The notes under the pieces: model-generated | Database searches by the model: none | What the model was told of the DNA's origin: nothing | What the model saw: the letters and a program-made list of their open reading frames with translations, nothing else | NCBI GenBank assembly: GCA_003551785.1 | Contig: PUNP01000595.1 | Coordinates: 1-5,273, forward strand | Source: Candidatus Brocadiaceae bacterium | GTDB lineage: Bacteria > Planctomycetota > Brocadiia > SM23-32 | Direction: 5' to 3' | Length of the DNA stretch: 5,273 bases | Shown: positions 1 through 5,166 of the stretch, piece by piece | Layout of the letters: every line of letters starts with the position of its first letter | How positions within the stretch are numbered: the stretch's first letter is position 1 | Position numbers and translations under genes: made by a program

Positions 1-709
1 CATGCGGAGTGGTCACCGGCGTGAAGGAGCCTTTTCCGCTCGTCCGCGTCGGCACAAGCCAGGGAAAGATGCAGCCGTCGTCCGGCCTCGGATCGGGATA
101 GGTGAACTGTTCCCGTGTGAGTATGTTGAGCATCAGCTTGTGCCATAGCGAGGCTTCCTGGTCGTGGGGCAGGACCAGGGTGGTCAGTGGCCCCCCGCCA
201 CGCAGCCCAACGCGATAGCCGGTGCCACCGGCCGGACCAGTGAGTTGCATGGTGAGCAGGGCGAGGCCGGCGCAATGGGGACACATCTCCTCGCCCACGC
301 CACGCTTTACGAAGTGATCGGTGTTCTGTTTCAGGCCCTGTTCGCCGGGAGCCTCGATGAGGAGACCTGCGACCGAGACCGTTTTGGCCTGTTCCATCGG
401 ATCCAGGTCCTGCATGAAGCGGGGACCGTCGCTGAACAGTTCGAATGTTCCGGCATACGGGGCGAACCGCGCCTGCAGGTCGTCCTTCGATGGCAGTTCC
501 ATCCACATCTGCAGCCACTGCTTGCGGCTGGCCGGAGCGCTGGCGGTCTGCAGCAACCCGATCAGGAACTGCCAGGCCGACCCCTGAAAATCCGCGCGGG
601 GCAGTGCAAGGTCAACGAGTTCCGGGTTGGCCACAGCCGCGGGCGGGCCGTATTCCACCCCGCCATCGCGCCGCCGAAACGGCAGCCAGGGGTCGTTAAT
701 CAGGTTCAT
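1..709 (-). CDS. casA: CasA/Cse1 (Cas8e), large subunit of type I-E Cascade, N-terminal part
   Basis: This is the large subunit of type I-E Cascade, which reads the PAM and helps open target DNA before recruiting Cas3. The window holds the first 236 codons, and the gene runs off the left edge. The product begins MNLINDPWLPFRRRDGG, matching the characteristic Cse1 opening (MNLLIDNWIPVR in E. coli). Further family signatures are LALPRADFQ (35-42), DHFVKRG (131-137) where E. coli Cse1 has its PAM-sensing L1 loop, CPHCAGLALL (143-152) and GYRVGLRGGGPLTT (164-177). The start is fixed by the family N-terminus and by a 4-base ATGA overlap with the upstream small gene, which suggests translational coupling. 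The reading frame is intact throughout the visible part. Normal length is about 500 residues, so roughly half is missing here. The assignment is secure from the sequence; the reading of the L1 region is family knowledge. Confidence 0.95.
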   Translation of the reverse strand, partial: MNLINDPWLPFRRRDGGVEYGPPAAVANPELVDLALPRADFQGSAWQFLIGLLQTASAPASRKQWLQMWMELPSKDDLQARFAPYAGTFELFSDGPRFMQDLDPMEQAKTVSVAGLLIEAPGEQGLKQNTDHFVKRGVGEEMCPHCAGLALLTMQLTGPAGGTGYRVGLRGGGPLTTLVLPHDQEASLWHKLMLNILTREQFTYPDPRPDDGCIFPWLVPTRTSGKGSFTPVTTPH

Positions 710-950: not shown

Positions 951-979
951 AGCGTAACCACCTCCCGCATCGAAGTCAA
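951..979 (-). promoter_or_regulatory. Predicted sigma70 promoter of the small gene-casA (Cascade) operon
   Basis: The minus strand has TTGACT (979-974; consensus TTGACA) and TACGCT (956-951; consensus TATAAT, weak) separated by exactly 17 bases. Transcription would start near 944, leaving about 29 untranslated bases before the small gene. The first -35 base (979) is also the first base of the AAG PAM of the pseudo-spacer target. Cascade bound there would sit against RNA polymerase. The -35 is strong and the -10 is only fair. Confidence 0.65.
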
Positions 980-1013
980 AGGTTAGTGGGATTGTAGAGG
1001 CGCCTATGCATCC
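979..1013 (+). promoter_or_regulatory. Self-target (operator) of the CreR guide: AAG PAM plus partial protospacer
   Basis: AAG at 979-981 is the best-known type I-E PAM and stands directly 5' of the site. The first 14 bases, GTTAGTGGGATTGT (982-995), match the first 14 bases of the pseudo-spacer, GTTAGCGGGATGGT (1062-1075), except at positions 6 and 12. In Cascade every sixth guide base is flipped out and does not pair, so the effective seed match is complete. Beyond position 14 the match ends (mismatches at 15, 16 and 18 onward). Such a short R-loop is expected to allow binding but not Cas3 cutting. The full 32-base footprint lies just upstream of the -35 of the casA-side promoter and just upstream of the -10 of the presumed creR promoter. 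Confidence 0.82.
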
Positions 1014-1017
1014 GAAA

Positions 1018-1033
1018 TGCTACACTGCCCGCG
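1018..1033 (+). promoter_or_regulatory. Predicted extended -10 promoter of creR
   Basis: TG at 1018-1019, one base, then TACACT (1021-1026; four of six consensus positions) form an extended -10 element. No good -35 is seen at 16-18 bases upstream, which extended -10 promoters tolerate. Transcription would start near 1032-1033, the first base of the first pseudo-repeat, so the RNA would have almost no leader. The self-target site covers this promoter's upstream region, so feedback on creR itself is plausible. Confidence 0.5.
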
Positions 1034-1061
1034 CGTTCCTCGCCTTTGCGAGGCTGAACCC
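1033..1061 (+). repeat. Degenerate type I-E CRISPR repeat 1 (upstream pseudo-repeat)
   Basis: It follows the type I-E pattern G-N-G-TTCC...AACC with a 6-base-pair stem, CCTCGC (1038-1043) and GCGAGG (1048-1053), around the loop CTTT. Compared with the usual CCCCGC/GCGGGG stem, T1040 and A1051 are a compensating pair, so pairing is kept. Aligned to the second copy, 22 positions are identical, with five substitutions and two single-base gaps. It would supply the 5' handle of the guide. Confidence 0.85.
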
Positions 1062-1075
1062 GTTAGCGGGATGGT

Positions 1076-3811
1076 TTATCCGTGAGGGTTGTGACGTTCC
1101 CCGCCGTTTGCGGGGAAAACCACGCCAAAATCCGCGTCATACGTAGCTTCATCGTGTTCATCCGGTTTCCAGAGCTGCGTGTCGCGGAGAAAGCGGTGCA
1201 TTTCCCGCAGGCGGTCCGCCTGCGTTTCCAGTGCCTGTGGCAGGGGCGGCAGTCGGCGTGCCTGACTTTCCCGCAGCTGTACCGTGCTCATGGCCCATGG
1301 GTGTCGCTCGTGCTCGTGCAGCGGTAACAGGCGGCCATCAGTCTCCTTCACCAGGGCGACAGAAATGGTCTTCTCGTTACTGAGTCGTGTACCCAGTTCC
1401 TGGTCGTCGTCCCAACCGGCTCCGTCGAGCTGGATCTGGTATCCCTGTTCCGGCTGGAGTGCATTGAAGCGGGCCACCGACCGGGCGACGTTCTGCTCGG
1501 CGTAGTCCTTGTAGTGAGTGTCCTGGAGGCCTTCCGGGAGCACGTGGGTGTCGCCGTGGACGGCCTCGAGGAGGGTCCGCGCCCGCTCGGGAAGGCGGAT
1601 GGCCCCTTCTTCGCGCAGGATGCGGCAGGTATTCCAGAGCTGTGCGGTGTCGGGGTAGACGTAGCCGGTGCCGCGCAATGGCGGTGGCAGCCAGTCCGGA
1701 TCCGGGGAGTCGGTCCATTCCGGAGCCAGCACGTGGAGGGTTGGGGCCGCGCGATCCTCTCCGGCCGGAGCGTGATCCACACGGTTGCCCCGGGTATCGC
1801 GCCGGTGTCGTTGGAGCCGGCCGGCGCGCTGGATGACGAGGTCGATCGGGGCCAGGTCGGTGACCAGGACATCGAAATCCAGGTCCAGGCTTTGTTCGAC
1901 CACTTGCGTGGCGACCAGCACCTGGCCCTGCCTGTCTGCGGCCGTGGAGTCGGAGCCGAAGCGCTGCAGGGCAGCGTTTTCGATGCGCTGGCGATCCGCC
2001 ATCGTGAAGCGGGCATGGAACAGCATGGCCTGTTCCGGCGACGCGAGTTGTTCGCTCACCTGCTGGTAGGCCGCGATGGCATCGTCCACGGTATTGCGGA
2101 TCCAGCATGCGCAGCGGCCTTCGCGGGCGGCATCGAGTACGAGGTCCAGGGCCTCTTCGGTGGTGTGGACGAATTCCACCGGCAGGTTGCGACCACTGAA
2201 GTGGCTGGCTGCCAGCGGTGTTTCGTCGACTTCAGCGCCCTGCACGTGGGTGGCCAGCGGAAAGCTGTCGTTGTTCAGGGTTCCAGCGGTGTTTTCACCG
2301 CGGCCTTGCTGCCAGGCACCAACGAGGTCCTCCCGCAAGATCCTCGGCATGGTGGCGGAGAGCAGGATGGCCGACCCGCCCTGTCGCGCGTGGGCGTCCA
2401 GCAAGGCCTTGAGCAGATGGCTGGTATAGGTGTCGTAGGCATGGACTTCGTCGACGATCAGCACCTTCCTGGCGAGCCCGAGCAGGCGGAGGGGCTGATG
2501 CTTGCGCGGGAGGACAGCGAGCAGGGCCTGGTCGATGGTGCCCACGCCCACCTCGGCCAGCAAGGCCTTCTTGCGGTTGTCGGCGAGCCACGCGCGGCAG
2601 GCGCTGCCTGCGCTGTCTTCGGTGCGTGTGTAAGGGGCATCGTAGCTGGTGGAGAGAACAACGGATTGCCGGAAGGCTTCGTTCAGGTCCCGTGCGCCGT
2701 GTGCAAGGATCAGTGAGGGCTCGGCATCAGGCGAATAGAGACGGCGATAGTAGCCACCCAGGCGCCGGTACATGGCGTTGGAAGTCGCCATGGTGGGCAG
2801 GCCGAAGTAGAGGCCCTCGTGCTGACATTCTGCGAGCAGACGGTGCGCCAGGGTCAGGGCGGCTTCGGTTTTGCCGGCACCGGAAATATCCTCCAGAAGA
2901 AACAACTGAGGAGCTTCGGCGAGCGGTACCGTCTCGGCCCAGGCCTGGAGGGGAGTGGGCCGGAATCCGAAGGCCGACGTAAAGCCGGGGTAGGAAACCG
3001 GGTGTGGGTGATGAAGGAGGCCCGTTTCTGCCAGGGCCCGGCGGGCTCGTGGCAGGGCCGTTTCATCCCAGTATTGTTCCAGCGGTGCCGGTTCGGCCTG
3101 ATAGGCAAAGATATCCGCATTCGAACCCAGCCAGTCGGCGAGCACGGCCAGGCCGGCGATCTGCCAGCTTGCGGGCGCCAGAACCTCTTTGCGCCATGCT
3201 TCGTCACCGAGCAGTTCGCTAGGCCATGCGGGCTGCAGCAGGCCTTCCGTAGCTCGCGCAAAGGCTGCCAGGGCTCGCAGATCCTCCTCCAGGAAGGCCG
3301 CGTTGAGCGGTGCGCCGCCACGCTGGACCGGCTTGCCGTGGTGTCCGAAGAAACAGCCCATCCACAGGCTCAATGCGTCTTCCTCGTCCATCAAGTCCAG
3401 CCTCGATGCCCCGGCTTGCTGGCGTTCATGCAACCTTGGGATCAGCAGCTTTTCATACCAGGCCTGCGCCCCGAGACTGTCGTGCCTTTCCCTGTAAGGC
3501 AGCGCGGCAGGCTGAACCAGGAACGGAAGTGGTGGGCTAGCGAGCCCCTGAAAGGAACGGGCGAACTTTCCCAGATCGTGAAGGGCGAGGGAGTAAACGA
3601 AGAAAGAAACCAGCGTCTCCGCATCCATGTGCAGGCTGTCCGCCAGCAACTTGGTTCGGACCGGAGAAGCGTGCAGCAGCACGTGGCCAACTGCTGCAAC
3701 GTCCAGGGCGTGAAACGGTAACAGGTGACAGGGGGCGTCTCTTGCAAACTTGTTGTCGGCTTTACCCCAATATCGAAAGAAGGCAGGAATATCTGACGCA
3801 TTGGTGGCCAT
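1076..3811 (-). CDS. cas3: Cas3, HD nuclease-helicase of type I-E CRISPR-Cas
   Basis: Cas3 is recruited by target-bound Cascade to nick, unwind and degrade the foreign strand. The product is 911 residues (E. coli: 888). HD nuclease signatures are YWGKA (14-18), CHLLPFH (28-34), LHDLGKF (H78, D79), GHHGK (156-160) and ADWLGSN (225-231). Helicase motifs are SGAGKT (Walker A, 310-315), DEVH (454-457), SAT (485-487), ATQVVEQSLDLDFD (634-647) and QRAGRLQRHRR (661-671). The C-terminal domain ends YDADFGVVF and then a short tail. The start at 3811 (MATNASDIPAFFRYWGK) fits the family; MEQSPGK from 3832 is a possible alternative, and neither has a strong ribosome site. The frame extends open to 4108, but that part is antisense to the helicase gene and not Cas3-like. 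All visible catalytic motifs are intact. It lies upstream of the Cascade genes with a 160-base gap to the next gene. Its last 16 codons overlap creR in antisense. Confidence 0.97.
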   Translation of the reverse strand: MATNASDIPAFFRYWGKADNKFARDAPCHLLPFHALDVAAVGHVLLHASPVRTKLLADSLHMDAETLVSFFVYSLALHDLGKFARSFQGLASPPLPFLVQPAALPYRERHDSLGAQAWYEKLLIPRLHERQQAGASRLDLMDEEDALSLWMGCFFGHHGKPVQRGGAPLNAAFLEEDLRALAAFARATEGLLQPAWPSELLGDEAWRKEVLAPASWQIAGLAVLADWLGSNADIFAYQAEPAPLEQYWDETALPRARRALAETGLLHHPHPVSYPGFTSAFGFRPTPLQAWAETVPLAEAPQLFLLEDISGAGKTEAALTLAHRLLAECQHEGLYFGLPTMATSNAMYRRLGGYYRRLYSPDAEPSLILAHGARDLNEAFRQSVVLSTSYDAPYTRTEDSAGSACRAWLADNRKKALLAEVGVGTIDQALLAVLPRKHQPLRLLGLARKVLIVDEVHAYDTYTSHLLKALLDAHARQGGSAILLSATMPRILREDLVGAWQQGRGENTAGTLNNDSFPLATHVQGAEVDETPLAASHFSGRNLPVEFVHTTEEALDLVLDAAREGRCACWIRNTVDDAIAAYQQVSEQLASPEQAMLFHARFTMADRQRIENAALQRFGSDSTAADRQGQVLVATQVVEQSLDLDFDVLVTDLAPIDLVIQRAGRLQRHRRDTRGNRVDHAPAGEDRAAPTLHVLAPEWTDSPDPDWLPPPLRGTGYVYPDTAQLWNTCRILREEGAIRLPERARTLLEAVHGDTHVLPEGLQDTHYKDYAEQNVARSVARFNALQPEQGYQIQLDGAGWDDDQELGTRLSNEKTISVALVKETDGRLLPLHEHERHPWAMSTVQLRESQARRLPPLPQALETQADRLREMHRFLRDTQLWKPDEHDEATYDADFGVVFPANGGERHNPHG
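1094..1122 (+). repeat. Type I-E CRISPR repeat 2 (downstream pseudo-repeat), inside the cas3 3' end
   Basis: It has an 8-base-pair stem, TTCCCCGC (1097-1104) and GCGGGGAA (1110-1117), around the loop CGTTT, followed by AACC at the same offset as in copy 1. The stem core is the canonical type I-E one. It lies antisense to Cas3 residues 898-906, so the DNA encodes both a Cas6e-type hairpin and the Cas3 tail. Confidence 0.85.
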
Positions 3812-3884
3812 TTTTCCGGGACTTTGTTCCATAAGCCTTGTTCGTCGCCCGATTTTTCGCCACCTTGCCACCCTTGCACCGGAT

Positions 3885-3917: not shown

Positions 3918-5040
3918 ATGAGTCTCCAGGCGACCCGGGTCGACACGTTTCTGCGTGGGCTGATCCAGCTCGGGCCGGACGTGAGCGCACTGGTGGGCCG
4001 CGCCGAGGCCTTGGTGACCCGTGTGGCCGGCGGTCTCGCGCACTGGGCGCGGCAGATCGAGATCGAGCCCTTCCTGCTGCGGGTGGTAGGCACCGCCGGT
4101 TCCGGCAAGACGCAGCTCGCGCTGAAGGAGTTTGAGGCGACGATCGAGGCGGGCGGTCGACCTCTTTATGTCTGCTTCAATCGCCCACTCGCGGACCACT
4201 TCGCGCAGATCGCGCCGCGCGGCGGCGTGGCCGCCACCCTGCACATGCTCTGCGACCGATTCCTGCGCGAGCACGGCATCACCCCGGACTTTCACCGGCC
4301 GCAGGCGTTCGACCGACTGGTGGAGGAGGCGGCGGCGCTGCCGATCCGCCCGGACTGGCAGTTCGATAGTGTGATCGTCGACGAGGGCCAGGACTTCCGC
4401 GGGGAATGGCGGGACCTGGTGTTCTGCCACGCACACGAGAACGCCCGCATCCTCTGGCTCGAGGACCCGATGCAGAACCTCTACGACCTGCCGGAGGTGC
4501 CGCTGCCGGGCTGGGTGCGCCTGCGCGCGAACAGAAACTACCGCAGCCCGCGGGGCGTGGTGCAACTCCTCTCGGAACTGCTGCCCGAAGGGCAGGCGAT
4601 CGAGCCCGCCGGCCCGTTTCTCGAGGCCGATGTCGAGGTGCTGACCTACGCCGACGGCGCCGGTCTGGCCGCGGAGGTGAAGGAGGGTCTCCGCCAATGC
4701 CAGGCCGCCGGCTACCGGCCCGAGGACATCGCGATCGTGAGCTTCCGCGCTGTTCCCCTACACCCAGCTTGGCCGGCATACCCTGCGCACGTTCACCGGC
4801 GAGTACGACCTGCTCGGGGATTCGCAGTACAGCGACGGCAGGGTATTGCTGGAGACGGTCTACCGCTTCAAGGGACAGGCGGCGCCGGCGATCATCTTTG
4901 CCGAACTCGACTTCGAAACGCTGGACGACAAGACCCTGCGCAAGCTCTTCGTGGGGATGACCCGGGCGCGGCTGAAGCTGATCCTGGTGGTGTCCGAGCG
5001 GGCGGCGAGGGTGCTCCAGGGGGCGCTGCGAGGGAACTAG
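3918..5040 (+). pseudogene. Broken UvrD-like DNA helicase: 5'-truncated and frameshifted
   Basis: This is the remnant of a superfamily 1 ATP-dependent helicase. The first frame reads from ATG 3918 through VVGTAGSGKTQLAL (Walker A, 4083 onward), VIVDEGQDF (Walker B, near 4371-4397), WLEDPMQNLY and NRNYRSP to AIVSFR at 4748. The family then continues one frame over: ALFPYTQLGRHTLRTFTGEYD (from 4747), YRFKGQ (4861-4878) and FVGMTRAR (4948-4971), ending at TAG 5038-5040. The shift needs one extra base or a loss of 2 (mod 3) bases near 4746-4750. From family knowledge, intact members carry about 200 N-terminal residues with a NERD nuclease-related domain before the segment that starts here. That region is absent, the frame is closed by TGA at 3900-3902, and GGCGGG is too close to the ATG to be a good ribosome site. 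The first frame stays open to the window end only because of high GC. A sequencing error could explain the frameshift but not the 5' loss. Confidence 0.8.
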
Positions 5041-5166
5041 CAGGCCGATCGAATGACCTATGGCGGCTCTCGACGACGAAACCCGGCGGCATCCATGTTC
5101 ACGAGGAGGGCCCGAGACGAGCACCCGACGCCTCGGCGCGGTCCCCGTCGATCAGGCGTTCGATCC

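Follow-up and report, generated by a model that had tools for sequence, protein, structure and literature searches.

A type I-E CRISPR-Cas locus from a Candidatus Brocadiaceae bacterium carries, between cas3 and casA, a two-repeat mini-CRISPR whose guide partly matches promoter-like sequence ahead of casA, and we interpret it as a probable CreR-type autorepressor, in which the guide would restrain its own effector genes (probability about 0.87). The locus is filed with CreR on the basis of its architecture and of covariation between guide and site, with the processing of the guide RNA and the repression itself being predicted. Self-control by a cas-repressing RNA is already published, and this locus adds a member, not a mechanism. 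Its significance lies in a type I-E system that can be recognised from sequence alone as carrying a guide that co-evolves with its own effector's promoter, and in a pairing profile that, over many natural pairs, mirrors the structure of Cascade.

Regulatory mini-arrays whose spacers have partial complementarity to cas promoters are reportedly described by Shmakov et al. (2023, Nucleic Acids Research), and the original paper on CreR, the cas-regulating RNAs of mini-CRISPRs, is said to be that of Liu et al. (2023, Cell Host Microbe). In the tracr-L autorepression of type II-A systems, effector and built-in guide repress the cas promoter, there by means of Cas9 and the long form of tracrRNA, whereas Cascade and a mini-array would act here. 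Passages from two reviews (PMC12737573, PMC12948488) present cas-repressing CreR RNAs as published, as generally uncoupled from a toxin gene and as relieved by crRNA competition or by loss of Cascade to anti-CRISPRs. Like the CreR of those passages, the present locus combines a mini-CRISPR within a cas locus, PAM-flanked partial complementarity to a (here putative) cas promoter and a type I effector, and complementarity is maintained in relatives despite sequence change; unlike it, a small gene stands between promoter and casA, pairing reaches position 14 and repression is predicted. Haloarchaeal CreA, in the corresponding passages of PMC8501985, requires just guide positions 1-5 and 7-11, with 6 and 12 dispensable. 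Our locus resembles this CreA of CreTA in its two degenerate repeats and in that seed with its two dispensable positions, and differs from it in that CreA represses an RNA toxin, whereas the site here is the promoter ahead of casA (PMC8501985, same passages).

The mini-array and its match ahead of casA

The window, that is, the whole 5,273-nt stretch of DNA analysed, was assigned to subtype I-E by profile searches (TIGR02547, E 4.6e-67; Cas3e model, E 3.2e-205), and the mini-array lies inside the cas locus, between cas3 and casA (Table 1). Searches with cas3 used positions 1076-3829. A helicase-like gene at 3918-5042 (+) matched a NERD+UvrD model (E 3.1e-11) and looks frameshifted, because its apparent C-terminal part (4846-5040) lies in a different frame.

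Table 1. Annotated features of the window, in order of position.
Feature	Position	Strand	Remarks
casA/cse1 (cas8e)	2..709	-	family profile search; cut by window end
small gene, 69 aa	706..915	-	between promoter and casA; stop overlaps casA start (ATGA)
putative weak -10-like box, TACGCT	951..956	-	17 nt after the -35 box; consensus only
putative -35 box, TTGACT	974..979	-	reads towards small gene and casA; consensus only
AAG PAM of site	979..981	+	directly before protospacer
paired part of site	982..995	+	12/14 matches; full 32-nt protospacer 982-1013
putative extended -10 of guide gene, TGCTACACT	1018..1026	+	proposed by eye
repeat 1, degenerate, I-E	1033..1061	+	would yield 8-nt handle CTGAACCC
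guide, 32 nt	1062..1093	+	between both repeats
cas3, subtype I-E	1076..3811	-	start uncertain; frame open to 4108
repeat 2	1094..1122	+	antisense to cas3 3' end

The mini-CRISPR (1033-1122, +) has the form of a crRNA-like gene, with a spacer flanked by CRISPR-like repeats. The GTTCC blocks of its two repeats are spaced 61 nt apart, which is the period of a I-E array (29 + 32), and the stem is intact, a T-A pair in the CCTCGC/GCGAGG stem of repeat 1 replacing the C-G pair of repeat 2. An Rfam search at E up to 1 returned no match within 690-1200. The earlier note had claimed that guide positions 1-5, 7-11, 13 and 14 match 982-995 after an AAG, and recomputation reproduced this pairing exactly, with mismatches at positions 6 and 12; against the full protospacer, 16 of 32 positions match. 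This 12/14 match is unique in the window besides the guide itself, the next best places reaching 10/14. Chance would produce at least 12/14 at the two AAG sites in 921-1032 with a probability of about 6e-6, in agreement with the improbability that had been claimed for a chance match with a PAM, and across all 121 AAG sites of the window on both strands with a probability of about 4e-4. When the guide was shuffled 4000 times with its dinucleotides preserved, 0.1% of the shuffles reached 12/14 at an AAG site, in 921-1032 and in the whole window alike, a conservative test because shuffles of 32 nt preserve much of the original order.

Two repeats around a 32-nt spacer have the look of an array remnant, as expected if the array served ordinary immunity and its spacer merely happened to resemble the promoter. 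Against that reading stand the figure of about 6e-6 for the promoter region, the covariation of guide and site presented below, and a search of viral contigs with one pattern, guide positions 1-20 with 6 and 12 left free, which gave no exact match; of the readings that we weighed it is the least credible, with next to no weight.

The PAM was also said to touch the -35 box of the promoter for the small gene and casA, and the AAG does share one base with the putative TTGACT (974-979, -). A generic scan called no promoter in 700-1200, and the promoter therefore rests on consensus and on relatives. Under the autorepressor reading, transcription of the mini-array would run away from casA, and Cas6e would cut the product for loading into Cascade, which would recognise the AAG and pair with the site through the twelve matching guide positions. 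A short R-loop would then keep Cascade on the -35 box and on the upstream boundary of the promoter that serves the small gene and casA; the promoter of the guide gene itself would probably be covered as well, and RNA polymerase would be blocked. The chromosome would be left uncut, as published work on E. coli suggests (PMC5904413), because the pairing is probably too short for interference. Free Cascade would in this way limit its own synthesis, and relief could come from competition by ordinary crRNAs or from loss of Cascade to anti-CRISPRs. Binding of Cascade at the cas promoter without cleavage, the role that the earlier note had proposed for the guide, is the best reading of the locus; covariation favours it, and repression would be its expected consequence.

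Covariation in a relative and the small gene

A genome-contig scan with cas3 returned a single locus, in Arhodomonas aquaeolei, where cas3 and casA abut and the intergenic region, the small gene and the guide with its mini-array are all absent; the repeats of the Arhodomonas array terminate in CTGAACCG. Within the order, cas3 matched in 5 of 54 genomes, including G390 (locus L018), at 55% identity. L018 holds the whole layout: repeat 2 lies inside the cas3 tail, the guide is directed away from casA, casA is overlapped by a gene homologous to the small one (56 aa) and the site adjoins TTGACT. No regular CRISPR array was found in the 13,122-base stretch of G390 surrounding the cas locus.

In L018, next to an ATG PAM, guide and site match at positions 1-5, 7-11 and 13-16, and the mismatches are again those at 6 and 12. 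Compared with the window, positions 1, 3, 4, 9 and 11 differ in guide and site alike, and the sole other difference within 1-14 is at position 12, in the guide only, leaving 8/14 letters of the guide and 9/14 of the site in common. Changes at paired positions are thus always matched by the partner, and the unmatched change falls at an unpaired position. Independent drift of guide and site in relatives had been set in advance as the observation that would count against the proposal; what we found is five paired positions that changed together. The covariation argument assumes that the two guides are homologous, as the shared layout suggests.

The small gene had no NCBIfam or PADLOC match, only sub-threshold Pfam hits and no match in viral contigs. 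Among the 54 genomes of the order it was found in G390 itself only, and the 369 genomes of the class gave 7 weak hits (best E 1.8e-4) that were taken as chance; a large protein database held five related proteins besides the L018 homologue. Over 52 aligned codons of the window and L018, 26 amino acids are common, 19 of which are encoded by different codons, and codon differences number 41 at the third position and 23 and 17 at the others. We conclude that the gene is coding because of these synonymous changes and because third positions differ most. Its structure model, of low confidence (pLDDT 65), weakly resembles ubiquitin-like folds (best E 0.012), and its sequence profile finds ubiquitin weakly, with single-copy chains at E 0.12 or worse and lower E values only for multi-copy chains, in which no single stretch passes. 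The short relatives leave no room for the first hairpin, and the resemblance is a lead only.

As a coding gene of no known family that comes first behind the putatively repressed promoter, the small gene could be the toxin of a CreTA/CrePA-type pair, silenced by the guide, harmful on loss of Cascade and merely accompanied by casA in its regulation. However, the gene overlaps the casA start (ATGA) in both the window and L018, which argues against a toxin because such overlap is expected of an operon member; several other guide-bearing loci have no homologue of the small gene between promoter and casA, and the lack of a PADLOC match also speaks against it. We consider a toxin pair very unlikely and prefer the autorepressor of the effector genes.

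Short ORFs of another kind stand between site and casA, immediately ahead of casA, in other guide-bearing loci (L023, L080, L081, L109); they are mutually similar by eye, with an F-I-R-F/I start followed by a basic, hydrophobic stretch, and are perhaps another leader-protein family.

Guide and site pairs in other type I-E loci

To extend the comparison, casA loci were collected with TIGR02547 at E up to 1e-3, some of them below the family cut-off. Among 369 genomes from the class 36 contributed loci, as did 33 among 398 from the phylum, 32 among 390 from one order and, in smaller orders, 14 of 85, 6 of 20, 2 of 2, 1 of 2 and 1 of 4 genomes. These sets overlap, and with G390 and the window they amount to about 115 genomes. 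The scan looked for a stemmed handle and, after it, a guide that agrees at 9 or 10 of its 10 seed positions (1-5 and 7-11) with a site that has a PAM and lies no more than 250 nt away; positions 6, 12 and 13 onward did not enter the search. Hits in the 123 loci numbered 32, of which 19 were full 10/10 matches, whereas reversed target sequence yielded 10, with one full match; 28 guide/site pairs remained after curation, most of the I-E loci scanned having given none. Non-cognate combinations of guide and site matched at a mean of 3.05/10 positions (240 combinations).

Two earlier scans also entered the curation. In 93 loci the first gave 44 real and 15 control hits (14 versus 1 at a repeat score of at least 22 and 10/10), the 14 including one locus twice (L040 and L114) and a further locus with the identical guide (L033); rows were dropped as palindromes, arrays, distant from casA or poor in PAM, among them L105, L067, L036, L046, L054, L076, L090 and the second hits of L023 and L109. 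The second, in 30 loci, gave 13 real and 4 control hits (2 versus 0 at the same thresholds), of which L139, L137, L133, L128, L136, L122 and L124 were kept. From the 123-locus scan we dropped L024, L036, L046, L074 and L141 as chance (handle 6/8 or, for L046, distance from casA and an AGG) and L040 and L114 as duplicates, and added L029, L081 and L128 from the earlier scans, which gives the 28. Rows were selected by hand, with awareness of our interest in positions 6 and 12, though not according to the bases there. L080 and L081 are similar to each other and come from one genome, and L049 and L103 have 8/10 seed letters in common. The genome with L080 and L081 (G367) has a third casA copy, L022, with similar guides at two of the three, and is perhaps a mixed assembly.

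PAMs among the 28 pairs were AAG (n = 24), AAA (n = 2), ATG (n = 1) and AAT (n = 1), and guide and site lie on one strand in all but L029. Beyond the seed, matches number 26 at position 13, 24 at 14, 16 at 15, 15 at 16 and 11 at 17, and the matching fraction averages 0.22 over positions 18-32, so that background is reached from about position 18. Position 6 matches in 5/28 pairs and position 12 in 7/28, the unconstrained expectation being 7. This profile is predicted by the flipping out of every sixth base in Cascade (passages of PMC5904413 and PMC8501985), and the rate at position 6 compares with 45% in E. coli off-target sites according to part of PMC5904413. The mismatches at 6 and 12 that the earlier note had pointed out are present in the window, but its suggestion that they are tuned was not supported, since match rates so near chance require no tuning. 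The data do not show selected mismatch, and both positions look unconstrained, with mismatch apparently neither favoured nor opposed. Within positions 1-14, L080 and L081 are identical except in the site at 6 and in the guide at 12.

With promoters called by consensus only, the best -35/-10 pair starts at most 2 bases from the PAM start in 13/28 sites, whereas 300 mononucleotide shuffles averaged 2.8 such sites and never exceeded 8, and the PAM stands apart from it in 15/28; overlap of PAM and -35 box is common rather than universal. The strand scanned in L029 and L136 differs from the casA strand, and neither is among the 13. The site sits between two divergent transcription units, and the guide is directed away from casA in 27/28 pairs (the exception being L136), as would suit a guide that chiefly regulates its own divergent promoter, with the effect on casA a by-product. 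That reading is set against the 13 coincidences, which were scored on the casA-reading strand only, and we judge it slightly less probable again than the toxin pair; restraint of the effector genes remains the reading that we favour.

The scan was also applied to 11 plasmid or viral loci (10 of 40 casA-bearing plasmid records and one viral contig) and gave 7 real hits versus 1 control hit. L148, L151 and L154 were kept, L148 for its two full matches despite a handle of only 6/8, and L149, L155 and the second L151 row were dropped. The plausible pairs are on plasmids of Pseudoalteromonas sp. NC201, Roseomonas marmotae and Azospirillum argentinense, and in the latter two the guide runs in the direction of casA, unlike in most other loci. 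Three plasmids of Vibrionaceae (L145-L147), with cas3 adjoining or almost adjoining casA, had no guide/site pair, and L001, arranged in this way too, shows no guide either; a guide seems to accompany a separate promoter ahead of casA.

A/T at site positions 6 and 12

Among the initial 17 pairs, the site carried A or T at these two positions in 33/34 cases, compared with 140/238 at the other positions of 1-16 and 159/272 at 17-32. The pattern was noticed after the fact, and 15 later sites were then examined (11 from the second and 123-locus scans and 4 from the plasmid scan), in which A/T occupied 25/30 against 130/210 (Fisher p 0.024, within-site permutation p 0.014; p 0.06 against positions 17-32). 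With the two-site plasmid counted once, the later sites gave a Fisher p of 0.055 and a permutation p of 0.026. Across all 32 sites, A/T was found at 58/64 of positions 6 and 12 versus 270/448 elsewhere in 1-16 (p 5e-7), or 52/58 versus 246/406 once look-alikes were removed (p 7e-6). Four sites depart from the pattern, L128 and L154 at 6 as well as 12, L029 at 6 alone and L127 at 12 alone. The preference is strong in the first set and weaker in the later sites.

One tentative explanation, which we place just short of even odds, is that the flipped-out pairs at 6 and 12 of I-E autorepressor sites are selected as A-T because opening them would cost energy that RNA pairing does not repay. A promoter-based cause is also possible, for example contacts to A/T bases upstream, set at a constant spacing from the -35 box, although the neighbouring positions 5, 7, 11 and 13 show no A/T richness (17, 15, 19 and 19 of 28, respectively). 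Searches of open-licence papers turned up neither the A/T pattern nor this locus, and we present the pattern provisionally as a new observation. If the preference holds, the energetics of R-loop opening are written into natural autorepressors, which suggests a design rule for repression by Cascade. A G/C bias at guide positions 6 and 12 was dropped as a candidate, the first 17 pairs giving 10/34 A/T (p 0.005) and the next 11 giving 13/22 (p 1.0).

On the Pseudoalteromonas sp. NC201 plasmid (L148), one guide corresponds to two tandem AAG-flanked sites (1082 and 1120), 38 nt apart, and both are mismatched at positions 6 and 12.
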